Below, piece by piece: positions 2,085 through 6,815 of a DNA stretch of 8,631 nucleotides. The notes beneath the pieces are model-generated. The model made no database searches. It worked only from the letters and a program-made list of their open reading frames with translations, and was not told where the DNA came from. The DNA is from Pirellulales bacterium (GTDB lineage: Bacteria; Planctomycetota; Planctomycetia; Pirellulales; JAICIG01): assembly GCA_025924495.1 (NCBI GenBank), contig JAICIG010000347.1, positions 1 through 8,631 of the forward strand, read 5' to 3'. How positions within the stretch are numbered: position 1 is the first letter of the stretch; every line of letters starts with the position of its first letter. Made by a program: the position numbers and the translations under genes.

Positions 2085-2110
2085 GGCGGGCGACGACTAG
2101 GTCGCCCGCC
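2085..2110. terminator. Perfect 10-bp hairpin over the end of the hybrid-kinase gene
   Basis: GGCGGGCGAC (2085-2094) and GTCGCCCGCC (2101-2110) are perfectly complementary around a 6-nt loop, GACTAG. The loop contains the stop codon of the leftward hybrid-kinase gene (2099-2097). The hairpin sits where two transcripts converge and could act on both strands as a transcript end or RNase barrier. No T-tract follows on either strand, so intrinsic termination is unproven. Confidence 0.5.
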
Positions 2111-3599
2111 TAACACGATCCTCCAAGACAAGCGTCAGCTTGCCGAGTTCGGCCTCCAGCGTCTGGCAGGCCAAATCGGCGGCAGCCAACTCGCCATTTC
2201 GGCCTATTGCTTCCAGCGCGGCAGCCGCTTGAACCGTGGACTGAGCGCCAAAGTTCGCGGCCAGACCTCGAATGCTGTGCGCCGTTCGCTCCAGCGAACG
2301 CGCGTCTTGCCTGTCGATCGCGGCGCGAGCCTCGGCGAGCAGCTCGGGGCCGTCTTCCAAAAAGAACTCCGCCAGTTCGTCGAGAAGTTGTTCATTGCCT
2401 CCCAGCCGGCTTAGGGCGCCGCGGAAATCGACGAGCGATCGTTGGTTGTCCGCTTCCGTCTCCGCCTCGATCTCGCTCGCTGGCGGGTTTAACCCTTCAA
2501 CGACCTCGAACAATCGTTGAGCGCCCACAGGTTTGCTAAGCGCGGCATCAAACGCGCCCTCGCCAAGCAACTCGGCGGCGCCCTCGACGCGATGGGCCGT
2601 CAAAGCCACCAGCGGAGCACGGCCTAAGGGATCTAACTTGCGCATTTCCTTCGCAGCCTGCCAACCATCCATAATCGGCATTTCCAGGTCCAAAATCACC
2701 ACGTCAAAAGGCTTGAGTTCGCTTTGCGCTTCAAACAATTCGACGGCTTCCATGCCATTGTTGGCGGTCACGACCAGGTGCCCGCGATCTCGGAGCAACC
2801 TAGCCAGCAATTGCTGATTGGCGCGCGTGTCATCGGCCAGCAAAATGCGTCGGCCTTCCCGCCGCCCGCGCACTGGATTCGCCGCGGGCGTCGCCGCAGT
2901 TTCAGACAGCTGCGGCAATTCGAAGCGAGCGGCGAGCCGCGCGGTCAATGCTGAATCCTTGGAGGCGGCGATCCATAACTTGCCTTGCATCAAAGCGGCG
3001 AGACCAGCGGCAATCGCCAATTCCAACCCCGGCCCAAACGATCCGCTTAAAGCGGCCTCCGAGCATTCGACGAACTTGCCCGGCGGAAGATTGCCATCGT
3101 CGCACGACATTCGCATCGCGCCCGGCAGGCCGCAGGAAAACGATAGTTCGATGCAATCGGCGCTACGCCGGCGCGCTGTTACGCCAAGCGCGAGTTGTCG
3201 CCGCCCCTGCACTTGAATCGCATGGTTGACGAGACAAGCAATCGCTTGCCTGGTTCGCGCCGCATCGCCCACCAGCCGATGCGAAACGTCCTCTGCAACG
3301 GCCACAGACAGCGAGGCGCCGGGACAAATTTCGGACACGGATCGAGAGATTTCGTCCAGCAGCGGCCCTAGCTCGAAAGTCTCTTTGCGGAGCGACAAAG
3401 TGCCTGCGTTCAGGCGAGAAAAATCGACGGCGGAATCCATCAACTTCAAGATCGATTGCACCGCCTGCTGCATCGTGCCGAGGTACTGGCGTTGGTCGGC
3501 CGGCAAATCCGCAAGCGCGAGCAATTCAGTCATGCCGACCAAAACCGTCAACGGAGAGCGGATCTCGTGATTGAGGTGGTCGATGAAGGTTCGCGTCAC
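2097..3599 (-). CDS. Hybrid histidine-kinase-like protein (DHp, degenerate HATPase, receiver, HPt)
   Basis: A 500-residue multidomain phosphorelay protein with no transmembrane or sensor domain. DHp: residues 5-65, phosphoacceptor H11 in HEIRSPL. HATPase-like: about 80-230, starting with the recognisable GDAARTRQAIACLVNHAI. Receiver: 251-370, with acidic D256/D257, phosphoacceptor D304 in VILDLEMPIMDG, T334 and K356. HPt: about 388-495, with H441 in TAHSIRGLAANFGA. The receiver and HPt keep all key residues. In the HATPase domain the N-box asparagines are C122 and H126, the G1 Asp is missing (SFSCGLPG) and the G2 motif reads GPGLEL. ATP-dependent autophosphorylation is therefore doubtful and a scaffold, phosphatase or phosphotransfer role is more likely. 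The start is GTG with a weak Shine-Dalgarno; an in-frame stop at 3632-3630 excludes a longer form. It follows the ANTAR gene by 155 nt in the same direction. Confidence 0.88.
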   Translation of the reverse strand: MTRTFIDHLNHEIRSPLTVLVGMTELLALADLPADQRQYLGTMQQAVQSILKLMDSAVDFSRLNAGTLSLRKETFELGPLLDEISRSVSEICPGASLSVAVAEDVSHRLVGDAARTRQAIACLVNHAIQVQGRRQLALGVTARRRSADCIELSFSCGLPGAMRMSCDDGNLPPGKFVECSEAALSGSFGPGLELAIAAGLAALMQGKLWIAASKDSALTARLAARFELPQLSETAATPAANPVRGRREGRRILLADDTRANQQLLARLLRDRGHLVVTANNGMEAVELFEAQSELKPFDVVILDLEMPIMDGWQAAKEMRKLDPLGRAPLVALTAHRVEGAAELLGEGAFDAALSKPVGAQRLFEVVEGLNPPASEIEAETEADNQRSLVDFRGALSRLGGNEQLLDELAEFFLEDGPELLAEARAAIDRQDARSLERTAHSIRGLAANFGAQSTVQAAAALEAIGRNGELAAADLACQTLEAELGKLTLVLEDRVRRAT

Positions 3600-3754
3600 G
3601 GCGCTCGTCGAGGCTATAGGCCTGCGCCGTCAACATCGCCACCAAAAGCAATTGACCTGCTGGCCTGCCTCCCAGGCAAGTACGGTCGACGTGGTGCGTT
3701 TCAACGGCGAGATGGGCGGCAAAATAGTGATAACAGGACGGGCGTCGGACGCGA

Positions 3755-4396
3755 CTATCCGTTCAAAGCCTCCGCCATCGTCAGTACCATCTCTGCGATC
3801 TCGATTAGCTTTTTATTCTTACTGCTGGCAAGCTTCTGTAGCTTCCGAAATGCCTCTTGCTCATCGAGATTCAGATGCTTCATCAGCAAGCCTTTGGCTC
3901 GTTCAATCAACTTGCGATCAGCAAGCGCCTGACGCAGGTCGTCCGTCTCGTGCTTCAACGCCTGGAATTCTTCATAGCGACGCGTCGCCAAGGCAATCGC
4001 CGGTTCTAACTGGGCCTGCGTAATCGGCTTCAGCAGATAAGCGAATACATGGTTTTCCTCGGCGCGATCAATCAATGCTCGATCACAGTGGCCGGAAAGG
4101 AGCAGGATCGGCATGGGCGAATTCTGATAAATAATGCCCGCCGCATCCAGGCCATCCATATCGGGCATTTGGATATCGGTCATTACCAGGTCGGCGCCCT
4201 GAGCCAGGCATTGATCGACCAGTTCCCGGCCGGTCCCTGCCGCGATGACTACTTCATGGCCTAGCGCGAGAAGCATTTTCTGGAGCACTTCGCGAACGTC
4301 GCGGTCATCGTCCGCGATGGCAATCCGCAACCGAGTTCGTTGTTCGGCATCGTTGGCAGGCTGAGTTTTAGCTCGCGTCATAGTCATAGGGGGCAT
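3755..4396 (-). CDS. Response regulator with ANTAR RNA-binding output domain
   Basis: A 213-residue regulator. Receiver at about 22-137: acidic pocket D29-D31, phosphoacceptor D74 in VMTDIQMPDMDG, S101 and K123. A short linker helix precedes an ANTAR domain at about 147-208, with the family pattern LIERAKGLLMKHL, a middle EAFRKLQKLAS and a closing NKKLIEIAEMVL. In this family phosphorylation promotes dimerisation, and the ANTAR domains bind paired small RNA hairpins in mRNA leaders to prevent termination. The reading frame is open up to 4723, but GGAG 9 nt before ATG 4396 and the normal family length support this start. A sigma-54 promoter at 4579-4564 also lies inside the longer frame. The gene lies 310 nt downstream of the NtrC-type gene and 155 nt upstream of the hybrid-kinase gene, all in one direction. 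Confidence 0.92.
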   Translation of the reverse strand: MPPMTMTRAKTQPANDAEQRTRLRIAIADDDRDVREVLQKMLLALGHEVVIAAGTGRELVDQCLAQGADLVMTDIQMPDMDGLDAAGIIYQNSPMPILLLSGHCDRALIDRAEENHVFAYLLKPITQAQLEPAIALATRRYEEFQALKHETDDLRQALADRKLIERAKGLLMKHLNLDEQEAFRKLQKLASSKNKKLIEIAEMVLTMAEALNG

Positions 4397-4416
4397 GCCG
4401 GCGTTCTCCGTTCTTC

Positions 4417-4514
4417 GCGGGCTGACCGGTTTTCCCGCCACTCGATTCGTTCGGTATAGATGGGGGGGCGAACTATTCACCATAACAAAACCCCCTACGA
4501 CTCGCAGCAAGTCG
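4417..4514 (-). promoter_or_regulatory. Structured mRNA leader before the ANTAR gene
   Basis: Three hairpins can be drawn in minus-strand RNA between the predicted sigma-54 start (about 4553) and ATG 4396. CGACT...AGTCG (4514-4498) has a 7-nt loop that shrinks to 5 nt if a U-G pair forms. A five-G run (complement of 4495-4491) can pair with a C run (4468-4462) around a long loop. GCGGG...CCCGC (4438-4417) ends 7 nt before the GGAG ribosome site. None shows the typical pair of ANTAR hexaloops with A at position 1 and G at position 4. A regulatory role is inferred only from the structure and position. Confidence 0.3.
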
Positions 4515-4563
4515 GCCTTCGTTTTTGACGGATCCAGTAAAGCGTCTGAAATCGCATGCAGTT

Positions 4564-4579
4564 CGCAAATCACGTGCCA
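4564..4579 (-). promoter_or_regulatory. Sigma-54 (-24/-12) promoter upstream of the ANTAR regulator gene
   Basis: The minus strand reads TGGCACG-TGAT-TTGCG, matching the consensus TGGCACG-N4-TTGCW at every position except the last, with exact GG-N10-GC spacing. The expected start point is near 4553, giving a leader of about 157 nt to ATG 4396. The gene immediately upstream encodes a sigma-54 activator with an intact GAFTGA loop, which makes activation by that neighbour plausible. Confidence 0.78.
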
Positions 4580-4706
4580 ACTTGCATTTCCGTCATGCAC
4601 GGCAACTAACAGGACTTGGACGCTTGCAAACTCGTCGACCACATGACAGCTACCGGACCATCTTGGTCGCCTCACAGCCATCATCCGCCGCCAAGCACCG
4701 ATTGCC

Positions 4707-6203
4707 CTATTCACCGTTTGCATGCGAGGCCACTGGGGCGCCTTGCTCCTCGTCTTCCTCCTCCTCGACGCTCACCACCTGGCCAATGCTGATTTTGAGC
4801 AATCGTATTTTGTTGCGCAGACTGCCCCTGGTGATGCCCAGGATTTTGGCAGCCTGAGACTGGTTCCCGCCCGTATGGCTTAGCACGCGTGTGAAGAGAT
4901 ATTTCTCCAGCATGGCCAGCGATTCTGCATACAACTCTTCGCCGCCGCCTTCCAGAATATCGTCAATCAGCATCTCGAGCGACCGCAATCCGCCTTGTCG
5001 ACTCGGTCCGGCCGTAACGAGAGGCTTTCGGCCGCGGCGAACTTCTTCGGGCAAAAAATCAGGCATCAGCACCCGCCCGGTCGCGTGCAGCAGCGATTGG
5101 CGGACGACGCTTTGCAACTCGCGCACATTGCCGGGCCAGGGATACTTGGCCAACAAGTCCAACGCCTCGGGCGTGATGCCCTCGACATCTTTGCCCAGGC
5201 TATTGGCAAAGCGACTCAGGAAGTGCTCAAGCAAAATGATCAAATCGTCGCCGCGCTCGCGCAGCGGAGGCAGCTTAATGGTGTATCCATTCAAGCGGTA
5301 ATACAGATCGGCGCGGAAATCGCCGTCAGCAACCATTTTTTCCAGGTCGCGATTGGTCGCTGCCAGAATGCGGACGTCGGTGGAAATGGTCTCGCTGCCG
5401 CCGACCCGTTCGAACTTCTGTTCTTGCAGCAGGCGCAACAATTTGCTCTGGACCAGCGGCGTCATGTCGCCAACCTCATCCAAAAACAACGTTCCGCCCG
5501 AGCATTGCTCGAACCGCCCAATTCGCTTGCTGTCGGCGCCGGTAAACGCACCCTTTTCGTGACCGAACAGCTCGCTTTCCAACAGCGTTTCGGGAATGGC
5601 CGCAATGTTGACGGCCAGATACCTGCCGGCGGCCCGAGGGCTGTGATGATATATCGCTCGCGCGACCAACTCTTTGCCGGTGCCGCTCTCACCGCGAATC
5701 AAGACGGTCACGTTGTGCGGCGCGACCCGGCCGATCGCCTTGTAGACTTCTTGCATCGCCGGGCACCGCCCGACGAAAATATCCGAGGCGTCGCCGGCAT
5801 CGCAGGCGGCCTCGGGCACGCGCACGGGCACATGCATGCAGTGGCGAATTTCCAGCGCCCGCTCCACCAGCGCTCGGACCTTGACGAAATCCAACGGCTT
5901 AAGCAAGTAGTCGTAGGCGCCTAGCTTCATGGCTTCAATCGCCGTGTCGCTCGTGCCGCCAGCGGTGATGAATATCACCGGAACCTTCGAGTCCCGCTGA
6001 TAAATCTGCTCGAAGGTCGCCAGGCCCGACTGGTCAGGCAACATGATATCGAGGATCACCACATCGGGCTTTTGCTCGGAGAGCAATTCCAAGCCATCGG
6101 CTGCGGTGTTCGCCGCCAATACGTTTACTTCCGTATCGCGGAAAACCTGGCGGAAAATATGGAGCACCGACCGATCATCATCGATGACAAGCACGGAAGG
6201 CAC
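4707..6203 (-). CDS. NtrC-family sigma-54-dependent response regulator
   Basis: A 498-residue activator with the full NtrC plan. Receiver at about 3-118: D8-D10, phosphoacceptor D52 in VILDIMLPD, T80, K102. Central AAA+ domain at about 142-385: Walker A GESGTGKE (171-178), sigma-54 contact loop GAFTGA (218-223), Walker B GTLFLDEVGD (237-246), then LPPLRERGDD and YPWPGNVREL. C-terminal Fis-type helix-turn-helix at about 440-470 (GGNQSQAAKILGITRGSLRNKI), followed by an acidic run (about 480-486). All residues for ATP hydrolysis and sigma-54 contact are present, so it should remodel sigma-54 RNA polymerase after phosphorylation. The start is GTG at 6203-6201, with GGAG at 6214-6211, 7 nt upstream; the overlapping ATG at 6210 is out of frame. 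It is first in a leftward series with the ANTAR and hybrid-kinase genes. The partner kinase is not evident. Confidence 0.95.
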   Translation of the reverse strand: MPSVLVIDDDRSVLHIFRQVFRDTEVNVLAANTAADGLELLSEQKPDVVILDIMLPDQSGLATFEQIYQRDSKVPVIFITAGGTSDTAIEAMKLGAYDYLLKPLDFVKVRALVERALEIRHCMHVPVRVPEAACDAGDASDIFVGRCPAMQEVYKAIGRVAPHNVTVLIRGESGTGKELVARAIYHHSPRAAGRYLAVNIAAIPETLLESELFGHEKGAFTGADSKRIGRFEQCSGGTLFLDEVGDMTPLVQSKLLRLLQEQKFERVGGSETISTDVRILAATNRDLEKMVADGDFRADLYYRLNGYTIKLPPLRERGDDLIILLEHFLSRFANSLGKDVEGITPEALDLLAKYPWPGNVRELQSVVRQSLLHATGRVLMPDFLPEEVRRGRKPLVTAGPSRQGGLRSLEMLIDDILEGGGEELYAESLAMLEKYLFTRVLSHTGGNQSQAAKILGITRGSLRNKIRLLKISIGQVVSVEEEEDEEQGAPVASHANGE

Positions 6204-6237
6204 AATTCATCTCCAAGGGTGATACTTCGTCACAAAT

Positions 6238-6261
6238 CGGCGACACGAACGACAGTCGCCG
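6238..6261 (-). promoter_or_regulatory. Hairpin in the NtrC-type gene leader
   Basis: CGGCGAC (6238-6244) and GTCGCCG (6255-6261) form a 7-bp stem around a 10-nt loop, ending 23 nt before the GGAG ribosome site of the NtrC-type gene. It could equally be a DNA operator. TCGCCGGCGA (6256-6265) overlapping it is itself a 10-bp palindrome. Confidence 0.3.
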
Positions 6262-6343
6262 GCGAGAAGCGAGATTAATGAAATCGCTCCTCGTCGAGAT
6301 CGCAGAGTTTGAATCTCTGAGTTTTAAGACGCCCTGTTTAACG

Positions 6344-6378
6344 AAAAAGCCCTCGCTCTGGTGATTAGAACAAGGGCT
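6344..6378 (-). terminator. Intrinsic terminator, leftward
   Basis: In minus-strand RNA, AGCCCUUGUUCU (6378-6367) pairs with AGAGCGAGGGCU (6359-6348) to give an unbroken 12-bp stem with a 7-nt loop, followed by a run of U (five counting the stem's last base). Two pairs are G-U, which would be mismatches in the opposite RNA, so the structure is specific to the minus strand. It lies 145 nt before the NtrC-type start and 234 nt after the small 67-aa gene. It may end that gene's transcript, end a short RNA from 6411, or attenuate transcription into the NtrC-type gene. Confidence 0.82.
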
Positions 6379-6411
6379 GTCATAGCCGCAACGGCAACGG
6401 TGTTTGCACTA
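6344..6411 (-). ncRNA. Candidate short leader RNA or small RNA, about 68 nt
   Basis: Initiation 7 nt after the promoter at 6446-6418 and termination at the U-run at 6348-6344 would give an RNA of about 68 nt. Upstream of the terminator stem, two small hairpins can be drawn: GCAA/UUGC with a 6-nt loop ACACCG (6407-6394), and GGCU/AGCC with a 5-nt loop (6387-6375). The second uses bases of the terminator's 5' arm, so the two exclude each other. This is inferred from signals only; no known RNA family is recognised. Confidence 0.33.
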
Positions 6412-6417
6412 CGATGA

Positions 6418-6446
6418 AATGTAGATAGCCTGACGGCGACTGTCAA
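6418..6446 (-). promoter_or_regulatory. Sigma-70-like promoter, leftward
   Basis: The minus strand has TTGACA (6446-6441), a 17-nt spacer and TACATT (6423-6418). The -35 box is perfect and the -10 box matches TATAAT at four of six positions. The predicted start is near 6411. It points toward the terminator at 6378-6344 and the NtrC-type gene beyond. Planctomycete housekeeping promoters are less well described than E. coli ones, which lowers confidence. Confidence 0.5.
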
Positions 6447-6611
6447 CTAAACTCCTGTGCGATTCAGCCCACGAACGGCTCGAAACCGCACGGCCAACAA
6501 CCGCTTAGCAAATCCGTTCGAGCTCGCTCGCAAGTCAGCGGCGACCAAGAATGTTGCGTTTGCGCGGCCCAACCTGCAGGCCGCAGTCGCCCGGATGCTG
6601 CTCCCCGGAAT

Positions 6612-6815
6612 TTACCAGTCTTCAGAAAACCCGCGACGGTGACTCGAACTGCGGATCTCGACGATTTCAAGCGGTCCGCTGCTCATGGAGCGCTTGAAAT
6701 GCTGCCGGGGCGTCCAATCTTCACGAATTCGCGCGGCCCGGATCTGAATCTCTTCCTGAGAAGGTACATTCGGAAAATTCTTTACGCTCGGTGCGCGTTT
6801 ACGAGTTCGAGGCAC
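6612..6815 (-). CDS. Small basic protein of unknown function
   Basis: A 67-residue protein, basic at the N-terminus (PRTRKRAPSVKNFPNVP), with a central charged helix SQEEIQIRAARIREDW (about 18-33) followed by TPRQHFKRS. The central pattern resembles small uncharacterised planctomycete proteins I recall, but I cannot name a family. The start chosen is GTG 6815, because AGGAG lies 7 nt upstream; an ATG at 6863 would add 16 residues but has no ribosome site. A sigma-54 promoter at 6919-6904 lies about 78 nt upstream of the GTG. A perfect 10-bp inverted repeat lies inside the coding sequence (6664-6700), so the last 20 or so residues may be a recent addition. It could also be a truncated remnant. 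Confidence 0.55.
   Translation of the reverse strand: MPRTRKRAPSVKNFPNVPSQEEIQIRAARIREDWTPRQHFKRSMSSGPLEIVEIRSSSHRRGFSEDW
6664..6700. repeat. Perfect inverted repeat inside the small gene
   Basis: ATTTCAAGCG (6664-6673) and CGCTTGAAAT (6691-6700) are exact inverse complements around 17 nt. After one G-G mismatch, inner TCC/GGA bases could extend the stem. It lies within the reading frame of the 67-aa protein, covering the codons for HFKRS to PLEI. Confidence 0.85.

Follow-up and report, generated by a model that had tools for sequence, protein, structure and literature searches.

The DNA analysed here, called the window below, is the whole 8,631-nucleotide (nt) contig JAICIG010000347.1 of the Pirellulales bacterium assembly GCA_025924495.1. 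Its minus strand carries, in this order, a small-protein gene, an NtrC-type gene, a gene for a REC-ANTAR regulator and a gene for a hybrid protein with HisKA, REC and HPt domains. On balance, we favor the view that a two-component output module specific to one Pirellulales family is encoded here, in which a sigma-54-driven ANTAR regulator is combined with a kinase-dead relay partner and which goes together with envelope/stress-type genes. In this scheme the ANTAR response regulator would be made mainly while a sigma-54 activator is active, and its phosphorylation state would be set via a partner composed of a dimerization and histidine phosphotransfer (DHp) domain, a pseudo-ATPase, a receiver and an HPt domain. 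The hybrid would pass phosphate on, or drain it, with kinases encoded elsewhere as the supply, and the module would belong among sigma-54-linked envelope/stress-type genes. The gene content, the predicted sigma-54-like sites, the pairing of ANTAR and hybrid genes, the apparent loss of ATP motifs with relay residues kept and the leader of the NtrC-type gene can be read from the sequence itself; we infer the direction of phosphate flow and also that this NtrC-type protein would activate the ANTAR promoter.

The order Pirellulales was searched through samples. Scoring was limited to the best candidates of each genome, at most 21 in the 296 genomes searched for ANTAR and three in the 396 genomes searched for the hybrid. 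The homologue tables hold the best 120 of 3011 matches for ANTAR and the best 120 of 169 for the hybrid. The genomes of relatives are often incomplete bins, and genes in the loci were called with a home-made caller.

A conserved sigma-54-like site precedes the ANTAR gene

The ANTAR domain of the window protein scored 72.2 bits, above the Pfam cut-off of 27.3, and the best solved relatives of the REC-ANTAR protein were EutV and Rv1626/PdtaR, which have the same domain architecture. Its closest named relative, from the Pirellulales bin L001, is 76% identical; ANTAR genes were present in 47 of the 296 genomes. Sigma-54 sites had been placed before the ANTAR and small-protein genes in an initial annotation of the window. 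Two sigma-54-like sites with one mismatch are indeed present, compared to 0.34 expected, and 10 of 200 shuffles reached two; taken alone, the two sites are modest, suggestive evidence. They are convincing because they are conserved in relatives. A scan of the 500 nt upstream of the receiver domain with a hand-written matrix (100 shuffles per site) gave a site for every ANTAR gene of a five-member clade supported at 100/97 (the window, L128 and L115 of genome G001, L118 of genome G008, and L116), the site of L128 being weak. The small-protein gene with its site was found in three genomes. The three members adjacent to a hybrid gene form a subclade (100/88). The sites scored 16.5 bits in the window, 19.1 in L118, 18.0 in L116 and 16.2 in L115, values that none of the 100 shuffles of each reached.

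Of the 20 ANTAR genes closest to the clade but not in it (E value of the receiver match at most 1e-24), 12 have a kinase gene directly upstream (10 by script plus L127 and L120), compared to none of the four assessable clade members, L116 starting at a contig end; the kinase queries were drawn from six of the counted loci, which tells against this comparison. Because of this difference the clade looks derived, and its ancestor would have lost the kinase and gained the sigma-54 site and the dead-kinase partner. The distant ANTAR genes L129 (12.4 bits, 1/100 shuffles) and L146 (14.4 bits, 0/100) were excluded from the clade count. Four further sites, upstream of ANTAR genes in L127, L145, L120 and L125, were discarded as a coding coincidence, since they encode the kinase G2 box GTGLGMAIA of the upstream gene. 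The combination of a sigma-54-like site followed by a terminator was also dropped; it was seen in 2 of 47 cases, both times within the downstream gene.

The ANTAR regulator keeps some RNA-contact residues and lacks others

With residues numbered after EutV as in PMC8934654, the G4-contact residues R142, K143, K149 and E160 are kept in the window protein and in all of the best 120 of 3011 homologues, the position of Y164 being F in the window. The hexaloop plug Met172 is Ser in the window and Met in none of these 120, compared to 9 of 48 other Pirellulales ANTARs, and R175 is replaced by N in the window and in 119 of the 120. The binding data given for EutV in PMC8934654 include M172A and the triple change N173A/R175A/R177A, each of which abolished binding. 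Besides these replacements, the window protein differs from EutV and Rv1626/PdtaR by the lack of an ordinary kinase beside it. Canonical dual hexaloops in leaders were not enriched in the chosen loci (one match in 60.7 kb, 1.1 expected), and the strict form gave three matches in eight chosen loci, none of them intergenic and not above chance. The leader of the ANTAR gene itself folds no better than shuffles (z 0.39), and an attenuator at this place was rejected. The ANTAR protein would bind RNA; we conjecture that its target is non-canonical, perhaps a short AYGNS loop over a terminator arm.

The hybrid has lost its ATP-binding motifs and kept its relay residues

The initial annotation had stated that the cluster contains no ordinary sensor kinase. 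This is right because the ATPase part of the hybrid is degenerate, but the HisKA domain of the hybrid (54.5 bits, cut-off 26.9) and its degenerate HATPase region (17.7 bits, cut-off 26.4) had gone unmentioned. Twenty-two full-length members, window included, were aligned and compared to 13 canonical hybrids. All 22 matched HisKA, REC and HPt, and 10 of them matched HATPase_c weakly. The N-box Asn is present in 13/13 canonical hybrids and in none of the 22 members (nor in P0008 and P0017, which stand outside the alignment), and each of the G1 glycines is kept in a single member. The DHp histidine H11 is found in all 21 members that reach this position, and D304, K356 and H441 are found in 22/22. 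Lost ATP-binding motifs together with three retained relay residues fit a phosphotransfer hub or drain, and the hybrid is probably unable to use ATP. To our reading, its ATPase region appears as a reduced kinase-type fold in a structure model (mean predicted local distance difference test score, pLDDT, 81.6; predicted template modelling score, pTM, 0.47).

It is very improbable that the hybrid has simply diverged in sequence and still works as the sensor kinase of the ANTAR protein: HisKA is present, the H-box is intact, the G2 box is partly kept and the best solved fold matches of the kinase-like region are the cores of GacS, ShkA and RetS, but the missing N-box Asn and G1 glycines argue against activity, as does a chain that begins at the H-box and has no sensor domain. 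A role as a phosphatase or as a RetS-like modulator damping another kinase, rather than as a forward relay, is rather unlikely. Such a role is suggested by RetS, which modulates GacS, being among the fold matches, whereas the conserved HPt and REC residues point to a relay; RetS has a membrane sensor and two receivers and is not known to have an HPt. PhyT performs both roles (PMC5898713).

In the two related genomes the ANTAR and hybrid genes stay together, the NtrC-type gene does not

In each of the three loci with a hybrid gene (window, L128 and L118), this gene comes directly after the ANTAR gene, and hybrids of more than 600 bits occurred in two of the 396 genomes, adjoining ANTAR both times. 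ANTAR and hybrid matches share longest-contig sizes of 4912, 7508, 11942, 12398 and 58377, which suggests possible linkage in five more contigs. G001 and G008 also carry additional ANTAR genes without a hybrid. The initial annotation had joined the NtrC-type, ANTAR and hybrid genes into one cascade that should stay together in relatives. This applied to the ANTAR/hybrid pair (3/3) but not to the NtrC-type gene, which is absent from L128 (17.0 kb) and L118 (12.5 kb). The best NtrC-type homologues of G001 and G008 (69-79% identity) are located on other contigs; these are fragments, and long-range linkage is possible. The second ANTAR gene of G001, L115, adjoins a different NtrC-type gene (45%). 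Overall, among 56 loci, three (L115, L127, L136) have an NtrC-type gene adjacent to ANTAR and seven have one within about 5 kb, compared to 1 to 2 expected from the 15-19 such genes per genome; this expectation is a rough estimate, and signalling genes cluster anyway.

The ANTAR genes of L118 and L128 are oriented divergently to DUF883/ElaB-like and holin-like genes (matches below cut-off), and the DUF883/ElaB-like gene has a sigma-54-like site of its own (13.7 bits in L118, 11.8 in L128). The label YqjK, given to a small neighbour gene, was withdrawn, the gene having no Pfam match. Two further arrangements were observed. At positions 3775-8804 of L129, ANTAR, Pmp3 (78.1 bits), DUF1328 (63.2 bits) and a window-type NtrC gene lie within 5 kb together with sigma-54-like sites, Pmp3 and DUF1328 being small membrane genes. 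At positions 6227-8748 of L136 (genome G218), an NtrC-type gene, a gene for a free-standing 119-amino-acid HPt-like protein (24.5 bits, cut-off 24.6) and a convergent ANTAR gene are found side by side.

The leader of the NtrC-type gene is attenuator-like

The NtrC-type protein (Sigma54_activat 236.3 bits, with GAFTGA and GESGTGKE) is not NtrC proper, as it scored 489.5 bits with the equivalog TIGR01818, whose cut-off is 558.6. Its gene has a leader with a strong predicted promoter and an intrinsic terminator (Table 1), both of which the first annotation had missed; with the promoter and a conserved terminator before the start codon, the leader is attenuator-like. To follow the rule set for such leaders, a gene needed an exact TTGACA, 16-18 nt and TANNNT, and then an intrinsic terminator no more than 95 nt from the predicted start site. 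Six of 34 NtrC-type genes follow it (window, L214, L215, L216, L272, L273). These are six of the eight closest NtrC-type genes (at least 68% identity, window included), the other two being L217 and L274, whereas among 879 control genes four follow the rule and three of these four are the same NtrC-type genes, leaving 1 of 876 others. In each of the six leaders, the terminator starts 23-33 nt downstream of the predicted start of transcription. Their folds compare to shuffles with z values of -3.4, -3.8, -3.4, -1.6 (L216), -2.9 and -3.9; the six-leader consensus fold has little covariation and its terminator loops vary in length, and the support therefore comes per sequence and is weak for L216.

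It is possible, though we think it unlikely, that these elements form a closed loop in which the NtrC-type activator works through sigma-54 on the ANTAR gene and ANTAR antiterminates at the activator's own leader, giving positive feedback between control of initiation and of termination. This would agree with the concentration of promoter and terminator in the closest NtrC-type genes and with hairpins that fold better than shuffles, in L216 by a smaller margin. It would also agree with the motif GGCTAYGNNAGCCC before the terminator, both of whose matches in all of G001 fall in these leaders (in G049 one of two does; G008, G036 and G025 have none), and with co-occurrence: all four searched genomes with the leader (G001, G008, G049, G036) carry ANTAR genes, compared to 47/296 in the order, and G025, with a near NtrC-type homologue, has neither leader nor ANTAR match. 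With 8 of the 29 genomes examined for both being ANTAR-positive, the hypergeometric probability, calculated by hand, is about 0.003. However, the leader is confined to the closest homologues, so that kinship weakens the co-occurrence argument, and four ANTAR-positive genomes (G080, G039, G228, G053) lack the leader. The canonical dual hexaloop was not found in these leaders, and covariation in the consensus is weak. The motif GGCTATGACAGCCC is the same in L214, L215 and L272, loose in L216 and absent from L273, and the short GGCU/AGCC hairpin breaks down in L216 and L273. Finally, the ANTAR genes of G049 (L130, 5.2 bits) and G036 (L113, 10.6 bits) have no convincing sigma-54 site, that of L113 lying within a kinase gene, 421 nt upstream. 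A fuller version, in which feedback joins both ends of transcription, is decidedly doubtful: a sigma-54 activator would drive ANTAR, phosphate would arrive via the kinase-dead DHp-REC-HPt hub, and ANTAR with a loop altered for non-hexaloop hairpins would free the attenuator in the activator's leader.

A distinct possibility is that the NtrC-type gene and its leader are chance neighbours of the ANTAR/hybrid pair, the leader being a small RNA gene or read by another factor. The closest NtrC-type genes of G001 and G008 do sit apart from the pair, and the leader has no canonical ANTAR target; on the other side are the co-occurrence of leader and ANTAR and the proximity counts, which exceed the rough expectation.

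Stress-type genes lie behind sigma-54-like sites

Genes that follow a pattern site were surveyed in G001 and G008 (loci L214-L259). Those at most 400 nt behind a site include BON (41.2 and 40.0 bits, the second BON gene being the one in L128), Hsp70 (884.6), Hsp20 (81.9), YflT (27.6 and 31.4), LigD polymerase (298.4), glycogen-debranching enzyme (198.7), PP2C (48.0) and PII (101.2). Flagellar genes, named by eye, also lie behind such sites, and many other sites have no stress-type gene behind them. A stress-type programme of the module is a lead that these genes would suggest. In L231 and L232, both on contig C241 of G008, the same 45-amino-acid gene with its sigma-54-like site occurs twice, in opposite orientation and about 16 kb apart; this duplication is either a large inverted repeat or an assembly artefact.

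The module favored here, a sigma-54-driven ANTAR regulator with a kinase-dead relay partner among such genes, has to be weighed against several observations that speak against it. The pattern gave 44 matches in G001 and G008 together compared to 24 for the reversed-pattern control, and about half of the matches may be chance. The site of L128 is weak (10.6 bits, 6/100 shuffles), and one sigma-54 gene was found in G008 but none in G001, whose bin may be incomplete. The ANTAR/hybrid pair is present in only three genomes, and the window has no DUF883 gene. Within the hybrids, the column of the G1 Asp is D in 4 of 22 members and the G2 box is partly retained, its middle Gly being kept in 19 of 22. 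No phosphotransfer partner of the hybrid was identified.

Relation to known systems

Most of what is known about ANTAR proteins comes from actinobacteria and from the use of nitrate, ethanolamine and amides. For the hybrid, the nearest comparisons are PhyT, Spo0B and ChpT, which are not known to have a fused REC or a C-terminal HPt domain, whereas the hybrid holds three relay residues in one chain. A DHp histidine with a degenerate ATPase is what it shares with them; PhyT has this combination and serves a stress response, and its authors liken it to Spo0B and ChpT (PMC5898713).

The first annotation had called the architecture one not yet described, which was too strong. Control of nasT by NtrC has been published for Paracoccus, in whose nitrate assimilation the order NtrC, NasT (an ANTAR protein) and target is termed a three-level cascade (PMC5424462), and the general idea of a cascade is thus already known. 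In the NtrC-NasT/NasR systems of Paracoccus and Klebsiella, NtrC governs an ANTAR gene (nasT of Paracoccus) or an operon under ANTAR control at termination (PMC5424462), an arrangement similar to the one proposed here. The window differs from these cascades by its kinase-dead HPt hybrid as partner and by the attenuator-like leader of its activator gene. No nas genes and no NasS/NIT nitrate sensor were found among the eight window proteins scanned. These three features remain unusual, and the open-licence literature searched gave no account of a kinase-dead partner, a planctomycete setting or an attenuated activator gene. In a 2025 survey, 66 sigma-54 promoters were predicted before ANTAR genes (COG3707), mainly in beta- and gamma-proteobacteria, and the regulon predicted for Planctomycetota includes chaperones, UspA and activators, with enrichment of chaperones and UspA (PMC12316311). 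This enrichment agrees with the stress-type lead.

If the proposed module is right, a sigma-54-driven ANTAR regulator with a partner that does not autophosphorylate would extend ANTAR to a stress-like programme in planctomycetes. It would be a new wiring of phosphorelay to RNA, and it predicts an RNA target of ANTAR that departs from the dual-hexaloop rule. With its attenuator-like leader, the activator gene offers a direct test of the feedback idea.

Features of the window

Coordinates are given in Table 1. The gene positions of the first annotation were confirmed for the NtrC-type gene, the hybrid gene and the end of the ANTAR gene at 3755, all on the minus strand, and there was also agreement on the residues D52 of the NtrC-type protein, D74 of the ANTAR protein (counted from the ATG at 4396) and H441 of the HPt domain.

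Table 1. Predicted genes and regulatory elements of the window
Feature	Position	Strand	Details
Small-protein gene	6815-6612	minus	67 amino acids, GTG start; core VPSxxEIxxRaaxIRxxWsP; homologues L205 (G001) and L190 (G008)
Sigma-54-like promoter TGGCACGCCAAATGCT of small-protein gene	6919-6904	minus	1 mismatch to TGGCACN5TTGCW
Sigma-70-type promoter TTGACA-17-TACATT of NtrC-type gene	6446-6418	minus	In leader of NtrC-type gene
GGCTATGACAGCCC, possible short hairpin overlapping terminator arm	6387-6374	minus	Motif shared with L214, L215 and L272
Intrinsic terminator, attenuator-like, in leader of NtrC-type gene	6378-6348	minus	12-bp stem, U run; fold z -3.4
NtrC-family sigma-54 activator (REC, AAA+ with GAFTGA, HTH_8)	6203-4707	minus	Domain matches
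Sigma-54-like promoter TGGCACGTGATTTGCG of ANTAR gene	4579-4564	minus	Pattern and matrix scan
REC-ANTAR regulator	4396-3755	minus	Start ATG at 4396 or 4387
Kinase-dead hybrid: HisKA (H11), pseudo-ATPase, REC (D304), HPt (H441)	3599-2097	minus	500 amino acids; domain matches, alignment, model

A motif scan of the collected loci for the small protein gave four matches, three of which look homologous (window, L205, L190). In all three the core lies 137-173 nt downstream of a sigma-54-like site of 16.5-18.8 bits; L205 and L190 were obtained via the sigma-54 pattern scan, which biases this count, and the window member was not. The fourth match, L164, has no site and is apparently unrelated. The small protein has no Pfam match (window and L243/L205 members) and no NCBIfam match (window member).

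Rfam and tRNA searches gave no matches. A 442-amino-acid protein encoded at 655-1983 of the window has a signal-like start, judged by eye, and no Pfam or NCBIfam match. At 515-3, on the minus strand, is a gene for a sigma factor that looks like the extracytoplasmic function (ECF) type (Sigma70_r2, 56.1 bits), truncated by the edge of the window.

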